Below, piece after piece: positions 1-52,701 of a DNA stretch of 52,701 bases. The notes under the pieces were generated by a model. It ran no database searches. It had not been told where the DNA came from and was given only the letters and a program-made list of their open reading frames with translations. Origin of the DNA: a virus; IMG/VR virus record IMGVR_UViG_3300035691_000007, positions 1-52,701 of that record; one strand, given 5' to 3'. How positions within the stretch are numbered: the stretch's first letter is position 1; every line of letters begins with the position of its first letter. Position numbers and translations under genes: made by a program.

Positions 1-127
1 CGACCTCGACCCCGACCTCGACCCCGACCCCGACCTCGACCACGACCCCGACCACGACCTCGACCACGACCTCGACCTCGACCACGACCTCGACCCCGAC
101 CTCGACCTCGACCTCGACCCCGACCGT
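1..127. repeat. CGACCN hexanucleotide array, start copy of the terminal overlap
   Basis: Tandem array of the 6-bp unit CGACC followed by one variable base (T, C or A; G only in the last unit). These 127 bases are identical to 52575-52701, so they are the overlap of a circular contig rather than a second array. On the circle the array runs from about 52557 through the junction and has 24 units. The variable base is always the sixth; the other five never change. It is the wobble position of Arg when the minus strand is read as GGT CGN, and of Pro when the plus strand is read as CGA CCN. Confidence 0.97.
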
Positions 128-131
128 TCAT
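1..131 (-). CDS. Candidate (Gly-Arg)24 micro-protein, 5' part (continues across the contig junction to 52547)
   Basis: On the circle, an ATG at 131 opens a minus-strand frame reading Met-Asn-(Gly-Arg)24-Gly-Lys, 52 residues, ending at TAA 52547-52549. An AGGGA motif lies five bases before the ATG. The frame fits the minus-strand series: the gene before it ends at 161 and the next starts at 52496. Every base change in the array is silent in this frame (Arg CGA/CGG/CGT). Against coding, the Gly codon is always GGT, and the opposite strand has its own frame (ATG 52530, hydrophobic start, (Arg-Pro)n, stop near 190). If made, the protein would be extremely basic and disordered, fit to bind nucleic acid. 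Function is not known. Confidence 0.4.
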   Translation of the reverse strand, partial: MNGRGRGRGRGRGRGRGRGRGRGRGRGRGRGRGRGRGRGRGRG

Positions 132-160
132 ATCCGTCCCTGAGAATGGCCGCATTCATA

Positions 161-4360: not shown

Positions 4361-5173
4361 TTAGTCGCACAGATTCACCCACTTGGTTCCTTGGCAGCCA
4401 AGTTTGATGAGAATCTTGACGGCGATCTCAGCCATCAGTGAAAGAATGCTGTCGCGTTTTGCGCCGCCGCCGACGCCGTCGGCGGCGGCGCAGGCGGCGG
4501 CGGCGGCGTCGGCGGCGCAGGCGGCGTCGGCGGCGTCGGCGGCGCAGGCGGCGGCGGCGGCGTCGGCGGCGGCGTCGGCGGCGCAGGCGGCGGCGCAGGC
4601 GGCGGCGCAGGCGGCGGCGGCGGCGTCGGCGGCGCAGGCGGCGTCGGCGGCGGCGGCGGCGTCGGCGGCGCAGGCGGCGTCGGCGGCGCAGGCGGCGTCG
4701 GCGGCGTCGGCGAACTTCCACGCCTTTTGTGCTGATTCTCGCGTGCCGGTTTTGGCGCATTCATCGGCGGCAAACTCAAATCCCTCCGCGTGCTTTGGAT
4801 TCAGCTTGGCGGCAGCACGCAGCGCGATTGGCACAATCTGACGGATTGTTTCTTCGGCGAGCAGGCGCGCAAATTCCTGCTGATTAATCTGGTCGCTTCC
4901 AAGCTGGGCAATGGCGAGCCGCCGCAAGCCTTTGGCGCGAGTCGCTAGCGATGACCACTTTCTGTCGTTGAGAGAAATATTGAATCGGCGCACGGCGCTC
5001 CCAACGCAAGGAGGCGTGTCCGAATGTGGAAGCTCGAACGCAAAGCAAACCGCGGCCTCAACGCACATCTCGCCCGGCTTCTGCTTGCCAAGCCCATGCG
5101 ACAGGCCGCAATCGACGGTTTCCAGCACCTTGCGTGCGATTTTCTTGGTGGGTTTGTGTTCCGCTGTTTTCAT
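4361..5173 (-). CDS. Protein with Ala-Ala-(Asp/Cys/Ala) repeat domain, 270 aa
   Basis: Residues 1-150 are an ordinary globular, mainly helical domain (start MKTAEHKPTKKIARKVLETV, with several Cys). Residues about 150-232 are a pure run of AAX triplets, where X is Asp, Cys or Ala. Residues 233-270 return to normal sequence and end in GCQGTKWVNLCD. The repeat would form a long helix with Asp and Cys on a rotating stripe. The gene is led by a promoter-like site at 5185-5211. Similar Ala/Asp-rich repeat tracts occur in phage and metagenome proteins without a known function. Confidence 0.75.
   Translation of the reverse strand: MKTAEHKPTKKIARKVLETVDCGLSHGLGKQKPGEMCVEAAVCFAFELPHSDTPPCVGSAVRRFNISLNDRKWSSLATRAKGLRRLAIAQLGSDQINQQEFARLLAEETIRQIVPIALRAAAKLNPKHAEGFEFAADECAKTGTRESAQKAWKFADAADAACAADAACAADAAAAADAACAADAAAAACAAACAAACAADAAADAAAAACAADAADAACAADAAAAACAAADGVGGGAKRDSILSLMAEIAVKILIKLGCQGTKWVNLCD
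4470..4711. repeat. GC-rich 9-bp repeat tract inside the Ala/Asp/Cys gene
   Basis: About 240 bp built from GGCGGC plus GTC or GCA triplets on the plus strand. On the minus strand this is GCC GCC followed by GAC, TGC or GCC. Changes are almost confined to the X codon of each AAX unit. One plus-strand frame reads as unbroken poly-Arg, but it has no plausible gene context. The tract is prone to length change and to assembly collapse. Confidence 0.9.
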
Positions 5174-10987: not shown

Positions 10988-11055
10988 CAATTAGACACGG
11001 CTTGCTGAAATTGGGCTTGCGTGCATCTATTCCGATACGGTAAACATTGGTTGCA

Positions 11056-11463
11056 ATGCATGTTTCCAAGAATAGGACACGGAATTCCAAGAATAGGACA
11101 GTTTTCATCTATTCGCTAGCTGATCCCGCTGATCCTTGTCTCGTTCGCTACGTTGGCAAGGCAAAGGACACAAAGAAACGTCTTTACGGCCACATGCGGA
11201 ACACAACTCGCACGCCATTGGGCAACTGGATTCATTCGTTGAACGAGCGCAAGATCAAGCCGATATTGACCGTTCTCGCAACTGTCGGCACTGAATATGC
11301 CGATGCCGAGGAAATGACTTGGATTCGTCGTTGCTACAGTCCGTCTCTGCTCAATCTCGATGGATTGCCCCATCGCGCTGAATGGCTCGTCAGCTACAAC
11401 AACGAACTTCGTTGGCGCGTGAACCGCTGGCTTGTCCAGCGTGGCTTTGCAGTCGTGAATTGA
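11056..11463 (+). CDS. GIY-YIG nuclease-family protein, 135 aa
   Basis: The core starts with TVFIYSLADP (the 'GIY' strand, here FIY), followed by VRYVGKAKDTKKRLYGHM, where YVG is the 'YIG' strand and the Arg of KKRLYGH is the catalytic helix residue. This is the standard opening of a stand-alone GIY-YIG domain. No separate DNA-binding domain is visible; length fits a minimal domain. It is one of only two plus-strand genes inside the minus arm, which suggests a moron-like insertion or mobile nuclease. ATG 11056 is chosen; a TTG nine bases earlier is also in frame. Confidence 0.75.
   Translation: MHVSKNRTRNSKNRTVFIYSLADPADPCLVRYVGKAKDTKKRLYGHMRNTTRTPLGNWIHSLNERKIKPILTVLATVGTEYADAEEMTWIRRCYSPSLLNLDGLPHRAEWLVSYNNELRWRVNRWLVQRGFAVVN
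11064..11100 (+). repeat. Two 16-bp direct repeats 21 bp apart at the 5' end of the GIY-YIG gene
   Basis: TTCCAAGAATAGGACA occurs at 11064-11079 and again at 11085-11100, a spacing of two helical turns. In the assigned frame they encode a doubled SKNRT stretch ahead of the nuclease core. They may instead be operator DNA that happens to be read through. The core GGACA is echoed as TGTCC boxes near 11820, 11830 and 11910. Confidence 0.7.
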
Positions 11464-11775: not shown

Positions 11776-12077
11776 GCCAGTCAGGGATATAACCTTAGAC
11801 AATGTCGGTAGTGTCTCGGTGTCCAAGTGTCCAATAGCCTGATTTCATTGGGGTTTCTTCACGTTTTCAAAGTAAACACAACGGGACACTCAAGCTGGCG
11901 TGGAAAGTGTCCAAGTCTGTCACACTTCGGACCTCGATCCAGCTAGGCTGAGGACTCAAAGGAATCTCTTTTCTTTGGCCAGACCGTCCCCACGGTGGCC
12001 ACCGGGAGGGGGACTTTCGACGGCCCGACTCGCTACGTGACTCCCGTTGTTGTGAGCGAGTTCAATTTTGGTAGAAC
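11776..12077. other. Convergent intergenic region with TGTCC boxes and a palindromic hairpin
   Basis: No gene is seen. The first part has repeated GTGTCC boxes (about 11819, 11828 and 11908) and an inverted GGGACACTC at about 11883. At 11986-12014 GTCCCC pairs with GGGGAC around a perfect 12-bp palindrome CGGTGGCCACCG, forming a strong hairpin usable from either strand but without a U-run. It lies between two converging genes, so it may act as a weak two-way terminator or an operator. Confidence 0.5.
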
Positions 12078-12314
12078 TCAGGCTTTCTTCTGGAATGGTC
12101 TGAAGTTGAACAGTGGGCAGGCGTAGCAAGTGCAGGCTGAGATGGCTTCACGGTCAAAACCCTGACACTCACCGCACTGGGCTTTGATGGCTGCGCGAGG
12201 CGAACACTTTCCAGACCAGCAACGGGTCAGAGCGGCCTTCCAGCTATCGGGAGCAGTCTCAATTCGTTTTTGGCGTCGAATTTGGATAAGGGAAGCGGAT
12301 TCGGTGGTTTGCAT
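12078..12314 (-). CDS. Cysteine-rich phage protein, 78 aa
   Basis: The central pattern is SPRAAIKAQCGECQGFDREA, then ACTCYACPLFNFRPFQ. A 'RAAIKA-C-x2-C' followed by 'C-x-C-x2-CPL-x-FRPF' is a widespread small phage zinc-binding type found near replication and packaging genes. No enzymatic motif. It ends close to the convergent intergenic region and is preceded by the 11-bp tandem repeats. Confidence 0.75.
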   Translation of the reverse strand: MQTTESASLIQIRRQKRIETAPDSWKAALTRCWSGKCSPRAAIKAQCGECQGFDREAISACTCYACPLFNFRPFQKKA

Positions 12315-12389
12315 GATGTTTGAGGTTGAACTGATTGATGATGGCTGAACTTTGCTGTTGCGCTCAGTACAGAGGTGAAGGTGAAGGTG

Positions 12390-12428
12390 TTAACCTGTGG
12401 TTGACCTGTGGTTGACCACAGGTTGAGG
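12390..12428. repeat. 11-bp tandem repeats (iteron-like) with an embedded palindrome
   Basis: TTAACCTGTGG, TTGACCTGTGG and TTGACCACAGG lie back to back (12390-12400, 12401-12411, 12412-12422), followed by a partial TTGAGG. The last two create the perfect inverted repeat ACCTGTGG-TTGA-CCACAGGT. Three AGGTGA-type hexamers (about 12372-12389) lie just before. The block adjoins the end of the DUF1376 replication-type gene, a common place for an initiator-binding origin, but a terminator or operator is also possible. Confidence 0.6.
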
Positions 12429-12431
12429 TTT

Positions 12432-13497: not shown

Positions 13498-13575
13498 TGG
13501 TCGCCGTTACCGGATTTGAACCGATGACCTCATGCTCCCAAAGCACGCGCTCCAGCCAGACTGAGCTAAACGGCG
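13498..13575 (-). tRNA. tRNA-Pro (anticodon UGG), CCA encoded
   Basis: A full cloverleaf can be drawn. Acceptor CGCCGTT/AACGGCG; D-arm GCTC/GAGC; anticodon stem CGTGC/GCATG (one G-U) around the loop TTTGGGA, giving anticodon UGG; T-arm ATCGG/CCGGT around TTCAAAT. The discriminator is A, and CCA is encoded. A C1-G72 pair is the known identity feature of bacterial tRNA-Pro. Length 78. It reads CCA/CCG-type Pro codons by wobble and lies between accessory genes, where phages commonly place a single tRNA. Confidence 0.93.
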
Positions 13576-22900: not shown

Positions 22901-24033
22901 GACGTGTCGTGGAGCAAATTCCAGTCGAATCCAGGCCATTCCTGCATCTGGCCGTAAGTGATTGCCGCATCGTCAAAGGCGGAATTGGATTCTGCCTTGG
23001 TCAACGCCTTCGCTTCCACCGCTTCGGCGGGTTGAGGGGGGGATTCTACCGATTCGGTAGTTTTCGGTATCGCTTCGGTAGTTGGCGTCAGTGCCGCCGC
23101 ACTGCCGGGTGCATTTTTGGTTTCTTGTGTTGCGGCAGCGACTTGAGATTGGGCGTCTCCATCGCCCACTTTTGGCAATTCCACTTTGGGTTGTGAAGGC
23201 TGTAGCACTTGCGCATCTGCGCCTTTGACTGGAATGGCATTGGGTTCCTCTGCTTTCAGTGTTTGCGCCGTGAGTGGCGCGTTGTTCTGCTCCGCTTCGG
23301 TTGCAACGGCGGTGGTCGGATGGAAAATCTTGAGGCGCGGTTTGCCAAGCACGGCCCCGGTCGCTGCGCTTTCCAGCACACCCGCCACGGTCGGAGTCTG
23401 TCCCTCAAGCAACGGGGAAACTGCTCCGGTGGCACCCATGAGTCCCGCCTGTGCCGCTGTCGCGGTGATGGCTCCCTTTTCCGCCTCGGTGATGGCTTTG
23501 CCCGCAACGGCCTTGCCCGCCGCCAGCACGCCACGGAACGCCTGTCCCGGTGCGAACTCAAACACGGGCAACGCGGCGGCGAATCCGCCCGCTGCCGCTG
23601 CAACCGGGTGTTCTGACTGTCCTGCGGCACGCATTTCCCTGATGGCTTCCGCTGTCTGTGGCGCGAACGCCTCCAAAGCCTGCTCCTGTGCGCCTGCGGT
23701 CAGCTTGCCACCAGCTACGGCACCAATCAGGCCACCGGCCAGCGCACCGACAGGGCCAAGTGCGGCACCCATTTCGGCACCAACCACAAATCCGCCCGCT
23801 GCCCCGGCGCTTGGAAGGATGCCCATTGCCGCCTCGCGCCCGAAGGTTCCCGCTGCGCTGGTTTTCTTCTCGGATTCGGGTAGATCGGCAAACGGATTGC
23901 CCTTGAGAGTCACGTCACCCACCTTTGGCAATGACGCAAACGGATTGTCCGTCAGTGTGGGCGTTGCCTGCGGCAAATCCATGAATGGATTTGCCGTTTC
24001 AGTCGGTGGGGCAATGGATTCAACATCGGGCAT
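19990..24033 (-). CDS. Large internal virion / polyvalent-type protein, 1347 aa
   Basis: ATG 24033 overlaps the gene before as TGATG. The first 50 residues repeat an NPF-x-x-LP motif three times. Residues about 50-120 are Gly/Ala-rich (FVVGAEMGAALGPVGALAGG), a glycine-zipper-like membrane segment. Then come long helical and Glu/Lys-rich regions, a further part around residues 950-1150 (RVKNIMERERLTPGNAMRFL, LQRAMQVSLLAPDFLEARAR), and a C-terminal Lys tail. The features fit phage ejection or polyvalent proteins (the C-terminal part resembles LPD38) that enter the cell with DNA. Position beside tail genes agrees. Confidence 0.7.
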   Translation of the reverse strand: MPDVESIAPPTETANPFMDLPQATPTLTDNPFASLPKVGDVTLKGNPFADLPESEKKTSAAGTFGREAAMGILPSAGAAGGFVVGAEMGAALGPVGALAGGLIGAVAGGKLTAGAQEQALEAFAPQTAEAIREMRAAGQSEHPVAAAAGGFAAALPVFEFAPGQAFRGVLAAGKAVAGKAITEAEKGAITATAAQAGLMGATGAVSPLLEGQTPTVAGVLESAATGAVLGKPRLKIFHPTTAVATEAEQNNAPLTAQTLKAEEPNAIPVKGADAQVLQPSQPKVELPKVGDGDAQSQVAAATQETKNAPGSAAALTPTTEAIPKTTESVESPPQPAEAVEAKALTKAESNSAFDDAAITYGQMQEWPGFDWNLLHDTSLNAKTGQGSGMGAVVQRNKMLAKLRRKVMDELGSESHVSKRGELLEALREKVKKIADESMSEEDRANAAERAAIDQPLTGTESTDFLPPEKGSGELFSSKETPFNLAGESATVESTKSTTQHGRETLVQNDLFAIQKVVENVDPTKSADAAQAMYGDARQAAAKIRNQLAVVDGDPVTRKAFAKEQRGRLKEVLALLEQRASKLPSRIGKGGPGAAAAGESGTYDPAAQLADALRTVKETDPLKRAQETSRIAEVWQAGKDTMTRAWGKATAAKESIKSNLLTLPEATPIKKLVAALDFQIQKSSAMSRDFGKALETTHPNKIRRNGIAILIDAGMDVERVKAAIAELPENTPLRVRRSFEAAAKLTDAERTTAEQIKTYFDQRLQDAQEAGVLKGFLEDYYTHVWKQPERMPAELKNAMSNGRVVSYFENARNRKLEDFITGIKLGKEPVFDPSLVLPRYNFNLDRAIASRAFIKKLTDTKEADGRPTAAPTGIGKQISKTEFAVKSDETGRTRRVFETKEEAQAQAREGESVVERENTASLISPKAKPEGIADYKPVDNPALKKWKWVDSAPDGTPILVEGDLVIHPDALQRVKNIMERERLTPGNAMRFLIRAGAEVKGAKLGVLSPFHQIHVGSHAVWHLVNPFSLKPEIDWTHPATKFAVEKGGLKLAADFHDKMAFSEGIGPGLIVQKLVPYSRMYSEYLFESFIPRLKLKTFEAVYQRDLKRYAGKLSPDQIAARAGDAVNNAYGELNRLWLGKEGRDPRLQRAMQVSLLAPDFLEARARFVAKAFTKYGAEERMALFVMGAGLYVTARVLNQLADGDPHWKEPHMAFAVRIGDKNYGIRSVIGDANHLLTDWRSFISTRINPLTTRTAIETVTQRDIRTGLHRSTTDQIADMLRQVVPSQLDSMLPGDRQWWFGLMQSMGVTARRQPTPEEIRKREEKAKKDAENPPAFELIYNPAHKKKK

Positions 24034-25652
24034 CAGCGTTGGCTGCTGGGCGCTCCTGAATTCAGAGATTTTAGATATTGTCCAAGGGAAGAATCCCAAA
24101 AATCATTTAAAATTTGCGTATCAGGCGGTTTGGTGAACGGAACCTGTCTTGCGTCATTTGTGCTTCCGTTTTTATTTTCAGGAGCAAATTTTTCTTTCAA
24201 TTTCCGGTCAATTTCCTCCGCCGCATCGGATGCGCGCTCAAACAGGGATTTGCCTAAATTTGTTTCACTTGGATGTAGCCGGTTGAACATTGTGCTTAAA
24301 AACTCGATCTTCTGCTGGTCGGAATAGGCCGGGCTGTCGAGAAATTGCTGCGTTTTGGCGTCAATGTCCATCGTGCCTTTCGGCTCTGAAGGCGCGGTTG
24401 AAGGAGATTGGGCGGGAGCATTGCCACCTGACAGCGGTTGCAGCTTGATTCCCATTGCCTCAAGCTGTGCGCGCACCGCATTGGGGTCTTTGCCCGCCTT
24501 GATCGCATCGTTCGCCTGCTGGATTCTGAGGTCAATGTCAGCCTGCGTTTTGACCTGTTGGACTTGCGGGGCGGCAGCGGGAGTTTCGGTCGCATCGCCG
24601 GTCGGATTTCTGGCCTGAGAAATCATTGTTCCCAGGCTCATCTGCGAGTCCTCCAATTCAGCCCACGTCTTGTGCTGTTCCGCACTCCATCGCTTCGGCT
24701 CGACATCGGAGAACTCGTCCACCTTTTTTTGCAGGCGCTTGATTTTGTTGCGCATGTCCTGACGCACTTCCTTGTCAAGTTGTGCATCGGCAGCCGTCGT
24801 GCCGGGAATCCTCTCCAGCCGCCCCGTGGTCGGGCCGGTCTGAATCCAGTCTCCCAAAGGTTTTCCTGTGGTCGGGCTGGTGATGGAAATGACTTTCGGC
24901 TCGGCGAACATCTGAGCACCAACCGGAGCGGAAATCCGGTCGATCATCTTGCGGTTGTCAGCGGCCACGCTTCGGAACTGTTCCGCCGCCGCCGTGTCGC
25001 CTGACTCATCCGCCGCCAGCGCCTTCGTCGTGGCGTCCTGTTCCGCCTGCTGATAGGCGGAGAGCATGTTCTTGGTCTGCTGACCCTTGGTGATCGCTTC
25101 CTGCTGTTTGGTTGCGTCCAACCGTTCCGACTGCAACTGCAACTCGGCAAACGCCTGATTGTTGGGTAGCCCCTTACCATCCCAATACTCCATGACCGAG
25201 GCGCGGCCTTCCGGGTCGAGCTTGGTCAGCCGCGTGGTGAAATCTTTTTTGTCGTTGAGGAAACTCTGGTTCAGTTGGTTCTTGGTCAGCACGGATTCCC
25301 ATGCGGACGAGATTGCCGGAGTCTTGAACTGGAACTTGTCCTGCAACGCATTGGCTTCCTCCGGTGTCTTGGTCTGCGCGAGCGTGGACACCGCCTCCTG
25401 AAAGGTCGCCTGATCGTCAAGCTGCGCCTGCTTCAACTGCGCTCCAAGCATCGCTCCCTGAATCCGCACGTCGGATTCCTTCTGGCGCAAGCCAAGCTCC
25501 TGCATCTTGAGCAGATTGTCCTGCTGTTGCTGCTTCTGCTGCATCCCCAGCTTCATGCCTTCCAGCACAAGCGGGATGCTGCTCTGCGTGCCGCCCGGAT
25601 TGCGCAGCCACCAGAGGTCGCTTGTGTCAGATGAAAGCCAGTCACCAGCCAT
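24033..25652 (-). CDS. Internal virion protein, coiled-coil rich, 539 aa
   Basis: Starts with MAGDWLSSDTSDLWWLRNPG, then a Gln-rich helical stretch (KLGMQQKQQQQDNLLKMQEL) and long coiled coils with Gln/Glu/Ala throughout. The end is TQILNDFWDSSLGQYLKSLN. This long helical protein with TGATG coupling to the 1347-residue ejection-type protein and to the smaller gene before it resembles the trio of internal virion (ejectosome) proteins of podoviruses. Specific family not recognised. Confidence 0.65.
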   Translation of the reverse strand: MAGDWLSSDTSDLWWLRNPGGTQSSIPLVLEGMKLGMQQKQQQQDNLLKMQELGLRQKESDVRIQGAMLGAQLKQAQLDDQATFQEAVSTLAQTKTPEEANALQDKFQFKTPAISSAWESVLTKNQLNQSFLNDKKDFTTRLTKLDPEGRASVMEYWDGKGLPNNQAFAELQLQSERLDATKQQEAITKGQQTKNMLSAYQQAEQDATTKALAADESGDTAAAEQFRSVAADNRKMIDRISAPVGAQMFAEPKVISITSPTTGKPLGDWIQTGPTTGRLERIPGTTAADAQLDKEVRQDMRNKIKRLQKKVDEFSDVEPKRWSAEQHKTWAELEDSQMSLGTMISQARNPTGDATETPAAAPQVQQVKTQADIDLRIQQANDAIKAGKDPNAVRAQLEAMGIKLQPLSGGNAPAQSPSTAPSEPKGTMDIDAKTQQFLDSPAYSDQQKIEFLSTMFNRLHPSETNLGKSLFERASDAAEEIDRKLKEKFAPENKNGSTNDARQVPFTKPPDTQILNDFWDSSLGQYLKSLNSGAPSSQR

Positions 25653-33997: not shown

Positions 33998-35169
33998 CCG
34001 ACATCCTCGCCCCAAATCCAAACATTCGCGGTCGCTGCGCTGCCTTGCGGGGTGCTGAGAGCAAGATAGACGGTTGCCGCCGTGAACACGTCCGTTCCAA
34101 CCACAGCCTCCAATGTGAGACTCAGATATTTGGATGAAGCGGTGAGCGCGGAGTAAACCTGTCCCGCCGCGACGATGGTTGTTCCTGACATTCCTGCGCC
34201 AGTGTAAAATCCCCCTGCGGCTGTCGTAAGGCTGATGGAGGCATTGTCCACAACGATGCGCCGGATGATGTAGCGTGAACTGCCGACAATGGTGATGGCT
34301 TGGTCGGAGCCTGAGTTGAAGTTGGCTCCAACGAGAGAACCAAGCAGTCCGTAACGAGGAAGCACCGCCAGCACCCCGCGCTGTGCCGCCACGGTCGCCG
34401 CATTTACCAGCGTGCGGGCAACGGCGGTGAACACGGCCAATCCCGCTGTGCCTGCTCCGGTGAAGTAAGGCAGACGGTCAGCGGCACTGACCAATCCGGC
34501 AAGCGCCGCAAGTTCAGCGTCGTATTGCTGGACATCACTGCCAATCGCCACACCAAGGTTCGTTCGCGCTCCGGCTGCCGTGGAAGCTCCGGTGCCACCA
34601 TCAGCAACGGCGAGGTCGGTAATTCCCGTAATGCTTCCGCCAGTGATTGTGACGGCGCTTGCTGCCTGTGTTGCCATCGTGCCGAGTCCAAGATTGGTGC
34701 GGGCAGTGGCAACGGTCGTGAGGTCGGAAAGGTTGTTGGCTGCGAGCAATGCGCCTGCGGAAGCCGCGCCTGCCGGTCCCTGAAAACCACCGGGGGAAAG
34801 TTTGCTGCCGGAAGCGAACACCGTTCCGGGAGCGGCATTGCCCGCGTAGGCGGCACTGCCAGCGTCCTCAAGGTTTTTTAGTGTCACCGTGACGGCATCA
34901 ATGATGGCTGTGGCTTGCAGGTAGGAACCAAGAAGACAGAGAACCTGATTGAGAGTGATGTAACCGCTATTGACCACCGTGGCGTTCGCAGTAGCCAACT
35001 CAGCGGGCATGGTGAAGTTTGCCGAGAGAGTGGTGTAGGCGTTCTGGCCGTTGGTTCCGTTGGTTCCACCTGCGCCAGCGTCACCTTTTGGACCGGGCAC
35101 AGAAACTATTGTGGAATCTTCACAGGACGGAAGGCAGCAATTTGAAGCCGATGGCAAAGTCTCAGGCAC
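33994..35169 (-). CDS. Tail fibre with collagen-like start, 391 aa
   Basis: The frame opens with GTG at 35169; other GTG starts are possible. Residues 24-45 (VPGPKGDAGAGGTNGTNGQN) are a collagen-like Gly-x-y run. The middle holds fibre repeats such as NLSDLTTVATARTNLGLGTM and LAVADGGTGASTAAGARTNL, the standard tail-fibre 'GGTGASTAAGARTNL' motif. The C-terminal end (VYLALSTPQGSAATANVWIW) is likely a trimer tip. It is the first gene of the minus structural arm and its 5' end overlaps that of the terminase gene on the other strand. Confidence 0.75.
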   Translation of the reverse strand: MPETLPSASNCCLPSCEDSTIVSVPGPKGDAGAGGTNGTNGQNAYTTLSANFTMPAELATANATVVNSGYITLNQVLCLLGSYLQATAIIDAVTVTLKNLEDAGSAAYAGNAAPGTVFASGSKLSPGGFQGPAGAASAGALLAANNLSDLTTVATARTNLGLGTMATQAASAVTITGGSITGITDLAVADGGTGASTAAGARTNLGVAIGSDVQQYDAELAALAGLVSAADRLPYFTGAGTAGLAVFTAVARTLVNAATVAAQRGVLAVLPRYGLLGSLVGANFNSGSDQAITIVGSSRYIIRRIVVDNASISLTTAAGGFYTGAGMSGTTIVAAGQVYSALTASSKYLSLTLEAVVGTDVFTAATVYLALSTPQGSAATANVWIWGEDVG

Positions 35170-35375
35170 AGCAACTTGTTATCCACTGGCGGCGGAGAAT
35201 CAAGTTGAATCGTGCCGTCAACGTGGCACTGTGCCGTCTGTGGCTGCCAAAAAAGCACAGCAGTTGGAGCGGTACGGTTACAAGTTTGACGCCGCTTCCA
35301 ATACTGTCGCTGACATGCTTGAGCTTGAGCTGCTCTGCTATAGGACAAACCGCAAACCGGAAAAGGGTGGACTAG
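35151..35375 (+). other. Short overlapping frame ahead of the terminase
   Basis: ATG 35151 opens a plus-strand frame beginning MAKSQAQQLVIHWRRRIKLN and continuing to about residue 33 before it reaches a run of six A (35249-35254). The part up to that point looks protein-like (basic helix); the part after it, to the stop at 35375, is Ser/Leu-rich and less natural. A -1 shift at the A-run would join the first part to the terminase frame. It may be a decoy frame, a small gene or the true N-terminus of TerL. Confidence 0.35.
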
Positions 35376-37042
35376 GAAGGGCTGGACATTTCCGCAACAT
35401 CGTCAATCTCATTTGGGGGCCGGACAACAAGCAGAAGAATTTCATCTGGCATCCGTGGGCGGAAAAGATGAACGAGGAAGTTCATTTCGAGGAAACACTC
35501 GCGGATGGTTCTATCCGACAACGCAGATACTTAGGGGTATCTGGGGCGGCGAGCAGTGGCAAAACTGACTTTTTCGGCGTGTATGGTTTGGTGAACTGGA
35601 TATGCGATCCAGTCAACACGCTCATCCTTTGCACGTCCACCGACCTGAAGGCTTCGCGCCTGCGCATCTGGGGCGCGATCAAATCCTATTTCGATTCCAA
35701 GCCCAAGGAATTCTGGCCGGGACGGTTGGTGGATTCCTCCGGTCAGATTGTCACCACCAATGAGAGTGGCGACCGCCTCAATGACCGCAGCGGGCTTGTC
35801 CTGATTGCCGGTGAGAAGAAGAAGGAGCGTGATGCCATTGGAAAAATAATCGGCGCAAAGAATCATCACGTCATCTTCATTTGCGATGAGTTGCCGGAAC
35901 TCAGCGAGGCTTTGCTTGAGGCTGCATATTCCAACCTTGTCGCCAATCCGCGCTTTGAAATGGTCGGGCTTGGAAACTTCAAGAGCCGCTATGATGCGTT
36001 CGGACAGTTCATCGCACCGAAGGCAGGATGGGATTCGCTCACATTGGAGTCGGATGATTGGGAAACGGAAAAGGGATGCTGCATCAGGTTTGACGGGATG
36101 CGCAGTCCGAATGTGCTTTCCGGAAAGGATGAGTGGCCGATCTACGGCAGCAAGCAACTCGCCGCGCACCGCAAGGATTTGGGAGAACACACGGCGGGAT
36201 TCTGGCGCATGTGCCGCAGTTTCGAGGCACCCATCGGACTTGATGACGCGATCTATTCGGAGAGCGACCTCGTTGCGGGCGATGCCTATTCCGCACCGCA
36301 ATGGCTGACGCGCCCTCTCAAATTCTCGACGCTTGACCCGTCGTTCACCAATGGCGGCGACAGGTGCATCCAATGGTTCGGTTCCTACGGGCGCACCATC
36401 GACGGGATTGATGTTCTGGCCTTTGACCATTGCATCAAACTCACCGAGGACGTGCGGATCAAGGACGTGAACCGGGACTACCAGATTGCACGCCAGTTCC
36501 GTGACAACTGCCTCAAGGAAGGAATTCCGCCGAATCGTTGTGGCATGGACTCGACGGCGGCGGGCGGTGTCCTTCATTCGATCATCAGCGAGGAATGGTC
36601 GCCGGAAGTGTTACGAGTGGATTTCTCCGGAATGCCAAGTGACATGATCGTGGTTCCGAACTCCGGCAAGACAGCCAAGCAGTCCTATGACCGGAAGGTG
36701 ACTGAGTTGTGGTACGTCGGGAAGGAGTTCCTGAAATACAAACAACTCAAGGGCATCACGCCGGAACTTGCACGCGAGATGAAGGCGCGCAAGTACGTTA
36801 CAGTGAAGACGGGTGACGGACTCAAGATGAAGGTGGAGACGAAAACAGAGATGAAGGCGCGGTTGTTGTTTTCTCCTGATGAGGCGGACGCGGCTTTTGT
36901 GATGCTCCACCTTGTCCGTATGCGTCATGGGTTTCTGCCCGGTGGTGACAACCGGGGCATGGGCGGGATGCGTCAGAACTTCCTTGAAGTGGCGCGGCAA
37001 GTGGATAGTGTCAACCAAGTTCACTATGCCGATGCGGATTAG
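35231..37042 (+). CDS. Terminase large subunit (TerL), about 603 aa
   Basis: Walker A is YLGVSGAASSGKTDFFGVYG, and the Walker B strand ends in HVIFICDELPEL (Asp-Glu). The nuclease part shows FSTLDPSFTNGGDRCIQWFG (first metal Asp), CGMDSTAAGGVLHS and a late DEADAAFVMLHLVRM. These are the ATPase and RNase-H-like headful/cos nuclease parts of a packaging motor. GTG 35231 (or 35240) is given as the start; the in-frame region further upstream is antisense to the fibre gene, and a -1 shift from ATG 35151 is an alternative. No small terminase was recognised. Confidence 0.85.
   Translation: MPSVAAKKAQQLERYGYKFDAASNTVADMLELELLCYRTNRKPEKGGLGRAGHFRNIVNLIWGPDNKQKNFIWHPWAEKMNEEVHFEETLADGSIRQRRYLGVSGAASSGKTDFFGVYGLVNWICDPVNTLILCTSTDLKASRLRIWGAIKSYFDSKPKEFWPGRLVDSSGQIVTTNESGDRLNDRSGLVLIAGEKKKERDAIGKIIGAKNHHVIFICDELPELSEALLEAAYSNLVANPRFEMVGLGNFKSRYDAFGQFIAPKAGWDSLTLESDDWETEKGCCIRFDGMRSPNVLSGKDEWPIYGSKQLAAHRKDLGEHTAGFWRMCRSFEAPIGLDDAIYSESDLVAGDAYSAPQWLTRPLKFSTLDPSFTNGGDRCIQWFGSYGRTIDGIDVLAFDHCIKLTEDVRIKDVNRDYQIARQFRDNCLKEGIPPNRCGMDSTAAGGVLHSIISEEWSPEVLRVDFSGMPSDMIVVPNSGKTAKQSYDRKVTELWYVGKEFLKYKQLKGITPELAREMKARKYVTVKTGDGLKMKVETKTEMKARLLFSPDEADAAFVMLHLVRMRHGFLPGGDNRGMGGMRQNFLEVARQVDSVNQVHYADAD
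35249..35255 (+). promoter_or_regulatory. A AAA AAG slippery heptamer
   Basis: In the frame that begins at ATG 35151 the codons are CCA AAA AAG, so the heptamer A AAA AAG stands in the exact phase needed for -1 slippage, as in E. coli dnaX. After slippage, reading goes on as GCA CAG CAG in the terminase frame. A nearby CTGTGGCTGC and GCACAGCAG can pair around it. It could equally be a miscount of a homopolymer. Confidence 0.35.
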
Positions 37043-37460
37043 CGACCGGGCGAAAGTTCCCAATGGCTGGTACAATTATACCCAGCAACCGGCAGGCAGC
37101 CTCACCAAGCCTGTCCTGCTCACCGCGCACACCGTTGGCCTGCTTGTTCTGCGCGTGCGCGAACTCCGGCTGGCGAACAGGATCGAGCTTGGTGCCAATC
37201 TTGCCCATGAAGTCGAACAGGACTTCTGCGAACGCCGGAAGGAACTTTGCGAAGATGGCGATGGACATCCCCTCGTTCACAACTCGATTCTTGACGCTGT
37301 GCTTGCCGCCGTTGCCATTCCAGCGGCCAACGGACTCGCGGTATTGTCTAAGGCGCTTGGTGTCCAGTGTGCCAAATGCCAGTTGCGCCATGAAATCATC
37401 AAACGGGTCAAGGAGCTTGGTTTTGTCGAAACCGTCCGAAGGATAAAGGCGACGATTTAA
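37026..37460 (+). CDS. Hypothetical protein, 144 aa
   Basis: ATG 37026 lies 14 bases inside the terminase end; a second ATG is at 37032. The sequence has a helical middle (ELGANLAHEVEQDFCERRKE, then ILDAVLAAVAIPAANGLAVL) and a C-terminal unit CAKCQLRHEIIKRVKELGF with a CxxC. Its stop overlaps the portal start as TAATG. It may be a packaging accessory or small virion part; not recognised. Confidence 0.6.
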   Translation: MPMRISDRAKVPNGWYNYTQQPAGSLTKPVLLTAHTVGLLVLRVRELRLANRIELGANLAHEVEQDFCERRKELCEDGDGHPLVHNSILDAVLAAVAIPAANGLAVLSKALGVQCAKCQLRHEIIKRVKELGFVETVRRIKATI

Positions 37461-39802
37461 TGGCTGCATCCTCAACCTACGTCCCCCTTGCCACCATCGG
37501 TGAGGACGGCAAGCCGCCTGCCTCGCGCCTGACTGATGCCCGCGCCGTCAACAACATCGTATGGCGGATGCTGGCCGGGAACGAGAAGCGCAGCAAAACG
37601 GATGCTTTGGTTTACGGTTTGGTTAGTGGAAATCCGCCGTACTCACGCTCTGAACTGGTCAAGAATGCGCAGTCGTGGCGCTGCAACACCAACTGGCGCA
37701 TCGCCGAATCATTCCTCAATATCGCGCTCTCGATGTATTGGGATGCGGTGTCTGAAGCGGGAACCTATTGCAGCATCCGCACGGGTGCGGGCAATGATGA
37801 GCAGCAGAGCGAATGGAGCCAGATCATCACCGAGGAATTCGACCGTCTCAACAAGAACGACACGTCGCTCAACTACATGCACCGGCTGTCGCACTTTGAC
37901 ATGGTGCTGTTCCGGTGCGGGCCGGTGATGTTCGAGGACGCATGGAACTTCCGCGCCCGCCCCATCAAGCAATCCAAGCTGCTCCTGCCCGACAGCACAC
38001 AGTCCAACGTGGACAACTGGAAGCTCGCCGTGGTGCTGGTCGATTATTCCGCCGATGAACTTTACAGCTTCATCCGCAATCCCAAGGCGGCTTCGGCCAT
38101 CGGCTACTTCCCGCAAAACGTGCGTGATCTCCTGATGAAATCCGCACCCAACGACATCTGGCCGCAGAACCACCGTTACAACTGGGAATGGTACGAGCAG
38201 CGCATCCGCAACAACGACCTCTATTTCTCCAACATCTGCGAGAAGATTCCGGTCGCCCACGTTTACTTCCGCGAGTTTCCAAAGGAGGACGAGCCGGTGG
38301 GGAAGATTTCGCACTGCATGGTTTCCCAGAACGAGGAAACGGACAAGTTCCTGTTCCGGCGCGTGGGCCGTTTTGAGAAGTGGCAGAACGTCATCCATCC
38401 GTTCTACTACGACACGGGCGATGGCACCCATCATTCGGTGAAGGGTCTTGGCATCAAGGCGTACGGCGCTTTGGAAACCTACAACCGGATGGAATGCCAT
38501 GCGGTCGATTGCGGCATCTGGTCAAGTGCCACCCACTTTCAGGCGACGGACTCGGCGGCGTTGCAGGATTTGGCGGTCATCAACATGGGGCCGTGGATCA
38601 TGCACAAACCGGGCGCGAACTACCTTCAAACCAACATGGGTTCGCAGTTGAACGGACTCATGGCGGTAAAGCAGGATTTGTTGACCACAGTGACTTCTAA
38701 CCTCGCGCAATACCGTCAGGATGTGTCGCGCAAGTCGCGCCCAAGCTCGGAGGCACCCACGGCGAGGCAGATTTCCTACGAAGCGGAGAATGAATCCGTC
38801 ATCGGACGTTCGGGCATGTCGTGGTATTTCGAGCAGGCTGATGAGTTCTACAAGGAACGGTTCCGTCGTGCCTCGAATCCAAATCTGGTCAATGCGAATC
38901 CAGGCGGCAAGGAAGCGTTGGAGTTTCAGGCACGTTGCATCCATCGCGGCGTGGCTCCGGTGGCTTTGCGCAAGATCGAATCCGTCCTTGCCACGCGCAC
39001 GGTCGGTTACGGTTCCGCCGATGCGCGGATGCAGTCCATGATGCGGATGATGGCAAGGCTGCCGATGTATTCCGAAACGGGACGCCAGCGCATCTTGCAG
39101 GACTTGACCCGAATGGACGCGGGCGAGGCTGGCGTGAAACGCTACATGCCTGACCTCAAGACCAGCAGTTATGAGATGGATCAGGAAGGCGAGGCGGCGC
39201 AGTGGGTCGGCACGATGAAAACCGGCGTGCCGTTTGTTCCATCGCCATCGCAGAATCCGAACATCTACGGGCGCGTCTTCCTTATGGCGGCGGCGCAGAG
39301 CACGCAGAGCTTGCAACAGGGCGCGAAGATGGAGGACGTGTTCAACTTCCTTGAACAGATCGGCCCGGCCATCAAGACGCAGCTTGACCGGATGCAGGGC
39401 GACCATTCCCGCGAGCAGGAGTTGAAGGCGATGGACGCGCAATGGCGTCAGTTGACAGCCATCCATGACAACCTCGCCGCACAACTCAAGAAGCGCATGG
39501 CGGAACGCATCCAACAGCAGAAGCAGTTGGCGCAGCAGTCCGCACAGGTGGACGGAGAACTGGCGCTTAAGGCGAAGGAGACTCAAGGCAAACTCACCAT
39601 TTCGCAGCAGAAGGCCATCAACAACCAGAAGCTCCGCGAGTGGATGCAGATGCAGAAAATGCAGATGGAACGTCAGGCGCATGGTCAGGATTTGGCCCTC
39701 GCCGACGCGCAGACCGCCAGCGAGATCACCCGCAAGAATGCGACGGCTGCCGCCACCGTGTCAGCCTCAAGAACCAAACCGAAGAATGGAGCACCAAAAT
39801 GA
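37460..39802 (+). CDS. Portal protein, podovirus type, 780 aa
   Basis: Placed between terminase and scaffold. The first part has SRLTDARAVNNIVWRMLAGN, then NTNWRIAESFLNIALSMYWD and IITEEFDRLNKNDTSLNYMH, the helical crown of large portals. The middle (FYYDTGDGTHHSVKGLGIKA, AYGALETYNRMECHAVDCGI) and the clip region resemble podoviral portals. The last 150 residues are a Gln/Lys/Met-rich coiled coil (RMAERIQQQKQLAQQSAQVD), i.e. the barrel helix of the longer portals. Size fits. Confidence 0.75.
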   Translation: MAASSTYVPLATIGEDGKPPASRLTDARAVNNIVWRMLAGNEKRSKTDALVYGLVSGNPPYSRSELVKNAQSWRCNTNWRIAESFLNIALSMYWDAVSEAGTYCSIRTGAGNDEQQSEWSQIITEEFDRLNKNDTSLNYMHRLSHFDMVLFRCGPVMFEDAWNFRARPIKQSKLLLPDSTQSNVDNWKLAVVLVDYSADELYSFIRNPKAASAIGYFPQNVRDLLMKSAPNDIWPQNHRYNWEWYEQRIRNNDLYFSNICEKIPVAHVYFREFPKEDEPVGKISHCMVSQNEETDKFLFRRVGRFEKWQNVIHPFYYDTGDGTHHSVKGLGIKAYGALETYNRMECHAVDCGIWSSATHFQATDSAALQDLAVINMGPWIMHKPGANYLQTNMGSQLNGLMAVKQDLLTTVTSNLAQYRQDVSRKSRPSSEAPTARQISYEAENESVIGRSGMSWYFEQADEFYKERFRRASNPNLVNANPGGKEALEFQARCIHRGVAPVALRKIESVLATRTVGYGSADARMQSMMRMMARLPMYSETGRQRILQDLTRMDAGEAGVKRYMPDLKTSSYEMDQEGEAAQWVGTMKTGVPFVPSPSQNPNIYGRVFLMAAAQSTQSLQQGAKMEDVFNFLEQIGPAIKTQLDRMQGDHSREQELKAMDAQWRQLTAIHDNLAAQLKKRMAERIQQQKQLAQQSAQVDGELALKAKETQGKLTISQQKAINNQKLREWMQMQKMQMERQAHGQDLALADAQTASEITRKNATAAATVSASRTKPKNGAPK

Positions 39803-48994: not shown

Positions 48995-49536
48995 TGAAGG
49001 TGGCCATCCAACCCTCCATGCGCGCCCGTGACTGGCAGTCGATTGCCAACGGGCGCGTTGTGCTGACCGACAACAAGGGTGGCGGCTTCGGTTTCTGGTG
49101 GCCTTCATCACCTCAGGACATCAAATATCTGTTCACTCCTTGGACTAGGATGATTACGGAGAACTCACTCAAGGCTGAGTTCTCCGTCACGGCGGAAGCT
49201 GGCGTGTCCTTCATTTCGACCGACGGTGATGGGAGCGGTCACGCGCATCTTATCATCATGCGTCAAGACTGGCAGCAGGGCGGTGCAGATGACCGTTGGT
49301 GGAGCAATCCGGCCACGGTGGAACTGGCCAATGGAACCTTCACGCTTCAAGCCTCGTTGCAGGCTTCGGACTGGACGAATGTTTACGGGCAGAGCGACCC
49401 GAAACAATTTGACGTGGCCATGTCGTCACCGGCTTATGTTGGCCTGACCTTTGGTGGTGTTAGCGAGTTCGGTCATGGCGTTGGTGTGCATGGTGGAAAC
49501 GCCAAGTTCAATCTGTCCTCGTTTCAATTTGCGTGA
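48994..49536 (+). CDS. Hypothetical beta-rich protein, 180 aa
   Basis: TGATG overlap with the gene before. Trp-rich strands (GFWWPSSPQDIKYLFTPWTR, LIIMRQDWQQGGADDRWWSN) and alternating beta pattern (FTLQASLQASDWTNVYGQSD, AYVGLTFGGVSEFGHGVGVH). It looks like a jelly-roll type, possibly carbohydrate-binding domain from the aromatic content. Late structural context. Name by pattern only. Confidence 0.6.
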   Translation: MKVAIQPSMRARDWQSIANGRVVLTDNKGGGFGFWWPSSPQDIKYLFTPWTRMITENSLKAEFSVTAEAGVSFISTDGDGSGHAHLIIMRQDWQQGGADDRWWSNPATVELANGTFTLQASLQASDWTNVYGQSDPKQFDVAMSSPAYVGLTFGGVSEFGHGVGVHGGNAKFNLSSFQFA

Positions 49537-49863: not shown

Positions 49864-50065
49864 CACGCTGGTATCGGTCAGCGTGGTCGTGCTCATCGTT
49901 TCCGGTGCGCTCTGGATCAACAACGGCCTTTCAGCCATCCGCAGCGACATCAAGGCGTTGCAGGACAGGATGGTGGACAGCCTTCTGGTGAAAGACATGA
50001 AGATTTGGAGCCAGCAGTTGCAGATCGACAATCCAACCCTTAAGGTTCCCCAAGTAAAACCATGA
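49805..50065 (+). CDS. Small membrane protein, 86 aa, spanin-like candidate
   Basis: Residues about 22-41 (LVSVSVVVLIVSGALWINNG) form one membrane span preceded by an acidic/polar N-terminus, followed by a short helical periplasmic-type part (LSAIRSDIKALQDRMVDSLL). Next to a lipoprotein gene with a 4-base overlap, this is the arrangement of inner-membrane and outer-membrane spanin subunits. No sequence family was recognised, so it stays a candidate. Confidence 0.5.
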   Translation: MEDNKLPTQLPEIQKAITRDTLVSVSVVVLIVSGALWINNGLSAIRSDIKALQDRMVDSLLVKDMKIWSQQLQIDNPTLKVPQVKP

Positions 50066-50670
50066 AAACAAACTTTGCCATCCTCGTTTCGCTCCTGTTC
50101 ATCCTCGGCTGCAAAAGCGGGCCACCGACAGCCATCGAGCGCAGCTTGTTCAACGTCCAGACCAACTACACGCCAAGCATCATCCTTGTCACCAATACGG
50201 TGACCGTGACCAACGAGGCCAAGATTCCGGTTCAGGTGCCAGTCACCAATTTCGTCACCAATCTGGTCGCGCAATACATCTACACCCCGAACACCAATGC
50301 GGCCACGGTGGCGGAAACGGGCGGCGCGATTGGTTCGCTGTTTGGTGTCGGGGGCATCGCCAGCACCGCGTTGGCCGGTCTGTTCGGATTGTGGGCACAG
50401 ATGCGTTCCTCCAAAGCCAACAAGACTTCCGCTGTGCTTGCCCAGATCATCGAGACGGGAGGCGAAATCCTAAAGACCACTCCGCAGGGTGCGCAGCTTG
50501 CCGATAGGTGGAAGACATGGATGATTTCGCATCAGGCCGAACAGGGGGTCATCAGCCAAGTGACGGGTCTTGTGGCGAACGTGGTGGACAATCAGGATGC
50601 CCGCGATGTGGCTGCGAAACTGACAACCTTGATGGGGAGCGTTCAGAATCCGAAGCCTCCGACTGGATAG
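50062..50670 (+). CDS. Lipoprotein, 202 aa, outer-membrane spanin-like candidate
   Basis: Signal with lipobox MKTNFAILVSLLFILGCKSG (LGC). The first third of the mature part is Asn/Thr/Val-rich (TPSIILVTNTVTVTNEAKIP). A hydrophobic Gly/Ala stretch near residues 90-115 (IGSLFGVGGIASTALAGLFG) is typical of small phage lipoproteins of this position, and the last third is helical. It is the last gene of the late arm and its stop lies at the edge of a large inverted repeat. Confidence 0.65.
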   Translation: MKTNFAILVSLLFILGCKSGPPTAIERSLFNVQTNYTPSIILVTNTVTVTNEAKIPVQVPVTNFVTNLVAQYIYTPNTNAATVAETGGAIGSLFGVGGIASTALAGLFGLWAQMRSSKANKTSAVLAQIIETGGEILKTTPQGAQLADRWKTWMISHQAEQGVISQVTGLVANVVDNQDARDVAAKLTTLMGSVQNPKPPTG

Positions 50671-51262
50671 GAAACTCAGAACAGTGGCAGTTGAGCAGGT
50701 ACCAAGTACGGGTACAGGTACCGAAATGAAGCTATTGAGTTTGTCTTAAGGCTTTTCTCTGAGTTTCCCACGGGACATTTCCTTGCGAGAACATCACAAG
50801 TTTGAAGTAGTCTTTGAAGCCGTGCTTTTCTCTTGAGAACCCACGTCTACGTTTTTCTTGCATCGTGTAAGGCGCGTGGGAACAGATTCACGGCCCGTCT
50901 GCAAGTTCCATTCTGCTCGCTCGATGGGGGTTTCACCCATCTTCAGTGCCGACCGGAAATGTCATAAAGGATCGGCAACGTACAGCTTCAAAGAACGACT
51001 GTTTGTCCGTGGGAGAACGCAGAAAACCCACCCCAGATTGCTCCGGGGTGGGCCTACGATGCCACGCCTTGACAGGTAACTGCGCAAAGTGCGCAGAGGC
51101 TTTCGCCTTTGAACGGTGTGGAATCTAACTTTTCGATTCGGTTGTCGCTCATAAACCTGTCAAGGTTCTGATGCGCACAAACTGAACCAGATCGCGGTTC
51201 CCGTCAACCCTTTTCGTCACCCGTCTAGCCGTAAGGCTTGGCGGTCAGGCGGTGTGGGATTC
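50670..51262 (-). ncRNA. Candidate large structured RNA (non-coding region B)
   Basis: Between two converging genes lie about 590 bp with no convincing gene and three nested domains. Domain 1: an 11-bp perfect stem 50670-50680/50758-50768. Domain 2: about 9 bp, 50765-50775 with 51003-51012, closing several hairpins (GCCGA/TCGGC 50948-52/50972-76; GATGGG/CCCATC; GGAAC/GTTCC 50879-83/50905-09). Domain 3: an 11-bp perfect stem 51067-51077/51155-51165 holding CTGCGC/GCGCAG and AGGC/GCCT hairpins. A C-A mismatch (50953/50971) becomes U-G on the minus strand, and a GAAA loop appears there (51097-51108). A GUAA loop at 51227-51238 would instead suit the plus strand, so the strand is not certain. Confidence 0.55.
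51019..51052 (-). terminator. Intrinsic terminator of the minus-strand arm
   Basis: On the minus strand CCCACCCC (51052-51045) pairs with GGGGTGGG (51034-51027) around a 10-base loop and is followed at once by TTTTCT. It would end transcripts coming from the last genes of the minus arm (51263-51487 and before), leaving about 240 bases of structured 3' RNA. Confidence 0.7.
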
Positions 51263-51487
51263 TTAGACTAGCAGCAAATTGTAAAGCCACTTGCGAAGAC
51301 TGCGCTTTGGTGGCGGAGGCGGAATTGAACGCCACCCACTAAACTGTTCATCGCATTGAATGAAGTGTTGACGAACGGTTGAGCAATAAAATCCCGTCCT
51401 TGCACACTTTCCGAATTCACCACTGCCACGCTGATGCGCACAGTTGTCACAAGATTTGATCGTAGAATTCAGATATTCAACCTTCAT
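51263..51487 (-). CDS. Cysteine-rich phage protein, 74 aa
   Basis: The core is CDNCAHQRGSGEFGKCARTG, then FYCSTVRQHFIQCDEQFSGW. The spacing C-x2-C ... C ... C ... C-x-E-x-F-x-G-W is a common small phage zinc-binding type seen at the end of early operons. The C-terminal tail (PPPPPKRSLRKWLYNLLLV) has a Pro run and a short amphipathic end. Role unknown. It is the last gene before the structured RNA and terminator. Confidence 0.75.
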   Translation of the reverse strand: MKVEYLNSTIKSCDNCAHQRGSGEFGKCARTGFYCSTVRQHFIQCDEQFSGWRSIPPPPPKRSLRKWLYNLLLV

Positions 51488-51509
51488 AGAATCTCAATCA
51501 CGGTTCGTT

Positions 51510-51806
51510 CTATAGTCCAATCAGCATCGGATTGGCTCCGATCTTGGTCGCTTCCTCAACTGACCGGACAATCGCCACCGGCCCTTTCCACGTCTGGTGA
51601 AACGACTGCTGAAACGCGGTGAGCTTCTGTTGCGACGGAGCTTTGGCACCATCCTTAATCTCTACAAGGATGTTCATGCCATTTCTGGCGATGAGCAAAT
51701 CAGGGCAACCGGAGCCGACCCGCGATAGGTCGAGCACGCTCCATCCAAGCTCACGGAAGCGTTTCGCCACGGCGGAATGATTGGAGTCAACCTTACGCGC
51801 TCTCAT
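51510..51806 (-). CDS. VRR-NUC domain nuclease, 98 aa
   Basis: Sequence HSAVAKRFRELGWSVLDLSR, then GSGCPDLLIARNGMNILVEI and K at the EIK centre, followed by PSQQKLTAFQQSFHQTWKGP. This is the PD-(D/E)XK-fold VRR-NUC: 'G-x-PDL' gives the Asp, 'LVEIK' the Glu-x-Lys, and 'K-x-x-x-x-x-Q' the last helix. Stand-alone VRR-NUC proteins are Holliday-junction or flap nucleases in phage replication and packaging. Start is ATG 51806. Confidence 0.85.
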   Translation of the reverse strand: MRARKVDSNHSAVAKRFRELGWSVLDLSRVGSGCPDLLIARNGMNILVEIKDGAKAPSQQKLTAFQQSFHQTWKGPVAIVRSVEEATKIGANPMLIGL

Positions 51807-52546: not shown

Positions 52547-52701
52547 TTATTTACCCCGACCCCGACCTCGACCACGACCTCGACCCCGACCTCGACCCCG
52601 ACCCCGACCTCGACCACGACCCCGACCACGACCTCGACCACGACCTCGACCTCGACCACGACCTCGACCCCGACCTCGACCTCGACCTCGACCCCGACCG
52701 T
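52547..52701 (-). repeat. CGACCN array, end copy; holds the 3' part of the (Gly-Arg)24 frame
   Basis: Twenty-four CGACCN units from 52557 to 52700; the sixth base is T eleven times, C seven, A five and G once (last unit). The minus strand reads GGT CGN all through, ending at Gly-Lys and TAA 52547-52549. The plus strand reads CGA CCN from an ATG at 52530. Bases 52575-52701 are the same as 1-127. The strict constancy of five positions is unusual for a decayed repeat and speaks for recent expansion or for selection. Confidence 0.9.

Follow-up and report, generated by a model that had tools for sequence, protein, structure and literature searches.

The window analysed is an entire virus record (G000) of 52,701 bases. 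Since the 127 bases at each of its ends are identical, it was taken to close into a circle of 52,574 bases, and we take the record to be a circularly assembled 52.6-kb phage with two transcription arms. The plus strand encodes a TerL-like protein (35051-37042), so named in this analysis and carrying the Walker A-type motif GAASSGKT, and a putative portal (37460-39802), assigned by its position and by counterparts in the relatives G004 and G005. Also encoded are tail-fibre-like proteins, a protein resembling exonuclease VIII and an ATPase that is conserved and presumably Sak4/RecA-like. The phage is distant from those known: the TerL-like protein had no match among 50,697 phage records; its alignment against viral contigs gave nine loci that were 24-27% identical, and against genome contigs it gave none. 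Using the ATPase as bait, eight loci of approximately 60% identity were found in viral contigs and 80 loci were kept from genome contigs, with the top match (62%) on an uncultured Lentisphaerae MAG contig giving a weak hint as to the host group.

Several other features were observed outside the region of interest. A tRNA-Pro (TGG) gene lies inside the minus arm (13498-13575, minus strand), and a long, GC-rich tandem repeat of 9/27-nt periodicity is found at 4461-4712 within a minus-strand ORF (4361-5173). A plus-strand ORF situated among minus-strand genes (11047-11463) gave a weak GIY-YIG match, at E 0.0039 and below the Pfam cut-off, and is a possible homing endonuclease. A hexamer array occupies both ends (52547-52701 and 1-155, minus strand), and the joined ends read as a 60-aa ORF, MRPFSGTDMN(GR)nGK. 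Variation among these hexamers is confined to the third base of the codon for Arg (CGA, CGG, CGT), whereas Gly in the repeat is encoded by GGT throughout, a pattern suggestive of translation into a Gly-Arg repeat peptide.

The region under study, 50671-51262, lies between a plus-strand lipoprotein-like gene (50062-50670), the last of the plus arm, and a minus-strand ORF of 74 aa (51263-51487) whose stop codon occupies 51263-51265. The lipoprotein-like gene had a codon score of 69.4 and belonged to no PHROG or Pfam family. The 74-aa ORF had a neutral codon score of approximately zero and no relatives, including none when it was used as bait in viral contigs; it was counted as a likely gene because of the cysteine pattern of its translation (CDNC...KCARTGFYC...C), and it probably ends the minus arm. 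An endonuclease-like gene and two more genes lie upstream on the same strand. The codon-usage gene caller left 50671-51509 as a gap, and no convincing ORF was found inside 50671-51262. As the plus-strand lipoprotein-like gene faces the minus-strand arm of the 74-aa ORF, the region is a tail-to-tail junction of the two arms. Two other ideas were dropped: a gene remnant, since nine of 10 ORF pieces had no PHROG match and the tenth matched at E 0.29, and a defence-linked RNA, for which the 10 neighbouring proteins yielded one weak JetC match (E 0.006).

Stems and strand preference across the junction

It had originally been predicted that 50670-51262 is a single structured RNA of three domains, closed by two perfect 11-bp stems and a third stem of roughly 9 bp. 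Both 11-bp stems are present (50670-50680/50758-50768 and 51067-51077/51155-51165), and the first starts with the final G of the TAG codon (50668-50670) that terminates the lipoprotein ORF. When 1000 dinucleotide shuffles of 50670-51262 were used as a control, the observed count of stems spanning 120 nt or less was matched in a fraction of 0.000 for stems of 9 bp, and of 0.001 for stems of 10 bp and likewise of 11 bp. Elsewhere the window has 11-bp stems at 23971, at 49156 and, near 4.5 kb, within the GC-rich tandem repeat. The two stems of the junction both span 99 nt, to which no meaning was attached, and their arms and inner folds differ. The third stem exists too, but instead of approximately 9 bp at 50765-50775/51003-51012 it comprises 8 bp at 50766-50773/51007-51014. 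Also seen were a C-A mismatch on the plus strand that becomes U-G on the minus strand (51035/51044), a GAAA loop on the minus strand (51104-51101) and a GUAA loop on the plus strand (51231-51234), all as anticipated.

The preferred strand of each domain was judged by G-U pairs and folding energy. The left domain, D1 (50670-50768), consists of its 11-bp stem with inner hairpins and favours the plus strand, with an energy of -33.7 on plus versus -27.6 on minus and three G-U pairs on plus; its z-scores were -3.44 (plus) and -3.60 (minus). The hairpin with the GUAA loop at the right (51205-51262) also favours plus (-25.5 versus -14.4 on minus), and the wider stretch 51166-51280 had a z of -0.65 on that strand. 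For the middle domain (50766-51014) the strand is undecided, the energies being -83.9 on plus and -85.3 on minus and the z-scores of 50764-51014 being -2.50 and -3.11, respectively. The remaining domain, D3, and the terminator hairpin next to it favour the minus strand. A single RNA would be expected to have one favoured strand, so this disagreement between domains argues against it.

The 3' strand of D1 and the 5' strand of the middle stem have 50766-50768 in common, and therefore the three stems cannot all be fully closed at once. In long transcripts of both strands (plus, from 50670 to 51066, 51165 or 51262; minus, from 51165, 51262 or 51487 to 50670) the predicted probability of the D1 stem was 0.00-0.07, and that of the middle stem 0.82-0.89. 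When D1 and the middle domain were folded alone (50670-51014), both stems were common, with probabilities of 0.73-0.83, because the overlap costs few pairs. Thus, while the stems, loops and terminator hairpin that had been described are real features of the sequence, the size of the third stem and the simultaneous closure of all three are not, and the overlapping stems, the loss of the D1 stem in long transcripts and the differing strand preferences leave the three-domain RNA unsupported. D1 may instead stand by itself as a structure, favoured on plus, within the 3' UTR of the lipoprotein-like gene. Taken as a whole, the 621-nt stretch folded only moderately better than shuffled sequence (z of -2.99 on plus and -3.06 on minus, 20 shuffles each), and this excess was concentrated in D3 and the terminator on the minus strand (z of -7.21, 200 shuffles).

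The D3 domain and the adjoining hairpin

D3 (51067-51165, minus strand) is predicted to fold as a four-way-junction RNA domain of 99 nt. It is closed by P1 (51165-51155/51077-51067, 11 bp) and contains P2 (51151-51146/51115-51110 and 51139-51135/51125-51121, 6+5 bp), P3 (51108-51105/51100-51097, 4 bp, with the GAAA loop) and P4 (51096-51090/51086-51080, 7 bp). Its z-score was -7.65 on minus versus -4.60 on plus, with none of 200 shuffles equally stable on minus; the frequency of the MFE structure was 0.31 versus 0.05, and the energy -42.8 versus -39.7. Across four energy parameter sets and two dangle settings, 32-33 of the 33 pairs were retained. A scan in 150-nt windows, 365 per strand with the extra windows placed in this region included, gave -6.67 and -5.57 for the D3/terminator windows on minus. 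Outside the region two windows reached -6.5 or lower, namely 4501-4650 on plus, in the tandem repeat, and 24751-24900 on minus, which is coding (-7.71). Among 368 windows of 120 nt from both strands of other gaps in this phage and four relatives, two were at or below -7 (G014 2451 minus and G013 36075 plus). The D3 fold is outstanding, yet not unique.

The minus-strand terminator that had been proposed within the region was located at 51021-51053, spaced 14 nt from D3 in a minus-strand unit of approximately 150 nt. This candidate intrinsic terminator has an 11-bp stem (51052-51042/51037-51027) with a GCAA loop, and UUUU (51026-51023) opens its short U tract, UUUUCU. A terminator scorer written for this analysis recognised a stable GC-rich hairpin with a U-rich tract directly behind it and gave -25.1 kcal/mol for the 32-nt piece. 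Of the 26 candidates that it listed for the window, this one (51026 minus) ranked top on the minus strand and second overall. The z of 51018-51066 was -4.93, and the energy of the hairpin was -29.2 on minus versus -18.5 on plus. The hairpin at 51026 was absent from the output of a built-in terminator scan, perhaps because that scan used G-U pairs to lengthen the stem at the expense of the U tract, and the host may terminate differently. No terminator was found on the plus strand of the region, and no sigma-70-like promoter between the 74-aa ORF and D3.

The top hairpin of our own scan was at 12389-12428 on the plus strand (-25.9), where a strong palindromic repeat of GTTGACCTGTG units is followed by TTTT; it lies at the end of 11776-12431, another gap between converging genes. 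The presence of two such regions in one phage had been considered unusual; if the other region is this gap, which is our guess, the argument loses force, because the gap also lies between converging ORFs.

A leader of 97 nt (51166-51262, minus strand) separates the last minus-strand stop codon from D3. When the leader was folded without the upstream ORF (51016-51262), the MFE was -103.1 without P1 versus -102.2 with P1 enforced, as an alternative fold that pairs 51225-51216 with 51071-51080, and so takes up most of the P1 3' strand, was 0.9 kcal/mol better. The predicted probability of P1 was 0.13 in this setting versus 0.98 when the entire 74-aa ORF was included (from 51487). The alternative fold could be a switch, although it is no less likely to be an artefact of the energy model.

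Convergent ends were also inspected in the four distant relatives having both listed terminator candidates and gene maps (G004, G005, G013 and G014), two others being counted only. In three of the four, a terminator-like hairpin was seen where the portal arm ends convergently, or close to that point. In G013 a hairpin-plus-T candidate (36136, plus) lies right behind the portal-arm end at 36074, and in G014 (12202, plus) and G004 (43781, plus) a nearly identical hairpin lies near the converging portal-arm end; no matching hairpin was identified at a convergent end in G005. Since the junctions were matched post hoc and without a control, and 24 to 60 candidates were listed per genome, many of them within genes, these matches indicate only that such hairpins occur at convergent ends in the group. 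Strong folding was observed in two other gaps of these relatives: a very stable long hairpin in a 749-nt gap of G014 (L140 2451-2570, z of -9.0 on minus), and several strong windows (z of -5.8 to -4.7 on minus) in a 994-nt gap of G005 (34393-35386, or L021 14393-15386). The latter gap contains tRNA-like T-arm motifs by eye, and ARAGORN found no tRNA on the L021 locus.

Searches for homologues and known RNA families

A search of the whole window against Rfam returned only tRNA at the gathering score. For 50600-51550, searched up to E 5, no ornate family was returned and the only matches were BjrC68 and GlsR14, both below their cut-offs; a riboswitch or ribozyme of known class was dropped from consideration following this search. 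The match to BjrC68 (RF02353) runs over the terminator as well as the 3' portion of D3 (51018-51102, minus), but its 23.7 bits fall below the gathering score of 39 and come mainly from the terminator hairpin, and the matched segment includes no 5' strand for the stem that closes D3.

BLASTN analysis of the region against phage records gave no match. In two of 11 records there were matches at E of 10 or less, all of 14-17 nt, and in three of seven further records matches of 14-19 nt at E of 1 or less. Five of 387 genomes from the phylum of the Lentisphaerae MAG gave matches of 28-36 nt (E 0.0009-0.006 per genome), which is about what chance would be expected to produce across 387 genomes. The lipoprotein-like protein matched two of these 387 genomes (E 0.00075 and 0.00097, 24-27% identity). 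As bait in viral contigs, neither it nor a neighbouring 1369-aa protein found a relative, and the endonuclease-like protein found three loci (38-46%).

A model of D3, R1, found no match in the 387 genomes, in a run without a positive control. Two exact patterns occurred in 1 and 59 viral contigs; similarity in these never extended past a stretch of 28 nt at the seed, nor did R1 give a match in them. In the loci of relatives, R1 gave a single match, at 55821-55891 on the plus strand of G005 (L022 15821-15891; 23.3 bits, E 0.0054). This match was rejected, as it lies inside an apparent coding ORF, most of P2 is absent, several pairs are non-standard, and no terminator was seen behind it. Its position is downstream of ATPase/exonuclease genes on the same strand, as is that of D3 here. 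The searched records, genomes and loci yielded no credible homologue of the region with which covariation could be assessed.

Interpretation of the junction

The region is probably a tail-to-tail spacer in which the minus-arm transcript has its 3' end, composed of leader, D3 and intrinsic terminator on the minus strand. From the positions and predicted folds we infer that RNA of the minus arm would continue through the 97-nt leader and D3 into the terminator, with RNA polymerase released near 51021, so that minus-arm transcription would be halted ahead of the plus-arm genes. The hairpin and D3 would block 3'-to-5' decay, and the 3' end of the minus-arm RNA may consequently accumulate as a stable fragment. 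Two readings had been put forward originally, a long minus-arm 3' RNA and an independent ornate RNA; for D3 and the terminator the former fits best, given their strand, their location behind the last minus-strand ORF, the intrinsic terminator and the lack of a detectable sigma-70-like promoter, and the latter is not supported. Terminators are expected in tail-to-tail regions in one published account (PMC1852404). The candidate described here is similar to such terminators in having a GC-rich hairpin and a U-rich tract where genes converge, downstream of the gene that ends an arm, but differs in that an unusually well-defined 99-nt four-way junction precedes it and in that it is predicted on one strand only.

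A defined fold ending in an intrinsic terminator is the anatomy of many bacterial small RNAs. The very well-defined fold of D3, its GAAA loop together with the GCAA loop of the hairpin, and the terminator at the end would suit a discrete small RNA of approximately 150-250 nt, expressed from its own promoter or cut from the 3' UTR, that would act in trans on RNA or protein of the host or the phage; however, an upstream promoter-like site was not found, nor was a homologue in the 387 genomes, in Rfam or, besides the rejected G005 match, in the relatives' loci, and we consider such an RNA unlikely. Small RNAs derived from 3' UTRs are treated as a recognised class in one source (PMC9438474). The D3-terminator unit, sitting behind the putative gene 51263-51487, would be like them in that a structured RNA forms the likely 3' end of an mRNA and uses the terminator of the gene, but it has no known RNA chaperone or target, and the searches gave no homologue. 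It is more doubtful still that D3 and the terminator are the first seen member of a new class of phage RNA, in which a four-way-junction 3'-end RNA would be released from the minus-arm transcript, be switched on and off by the leader through the nearly isoenergetic alternative pairing of the P1 3' strand, and either act in trans or tune convergent transcription. We place equally little weight on the explanation that unrelated terminator-type structures and chance folding account for the region, D3 being a fortuitous fold in drifting spacer DNA. The weakly structured or unremarkable middle domain and leader, the similar z of the coding window at 24751-24900 and the lack of conservation in any relative are in keeping with chance, but the rarity of two perfect 11-bp stems in shuffled sequence and the stability of D3, unmatched in 200 shuffles, speak against it.

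ROOL and GOLLD are described as RNAs encoded by phages and prophages, often near tRNA islands, that form RNA cages (PMC12286853). Like them, the junction is long, structured and non-coding and belongs to a phage, and the folding of the whole region, which beats shuffles on both strands at z of about -3, would agree with one ornate non-coding RNA of approximately 600 nt covering 50670-51262. The region, however, has no Rfam match at the family thresholds and no match to an ornate family up to E 5, no consistent single strand and no adjoining tRNA gene, the tRNA-Pro being at 13498-13575. Two of its closing stems overlap, the strand preferences of its domains conflict, and a minus-strand terminator lies in the middle of it, making a single ornate RNA highly improbable.

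A convergent spacer with several hairpins should thus be taken for one large RNA only after tests of strand and of stem coexistence. If the tail-to-tail spacer with a minus-arm 3' end is the true reading, the locus would represent ordinary phage gene expression, in which a strong terminator and a 3' structure separate two converging arms. In our judgement, structured RNAs in phages of little-studied hosts have hardly been sampled, and for this reason the four-way junction is the sole feature of the region that we regard as worth an experiment.
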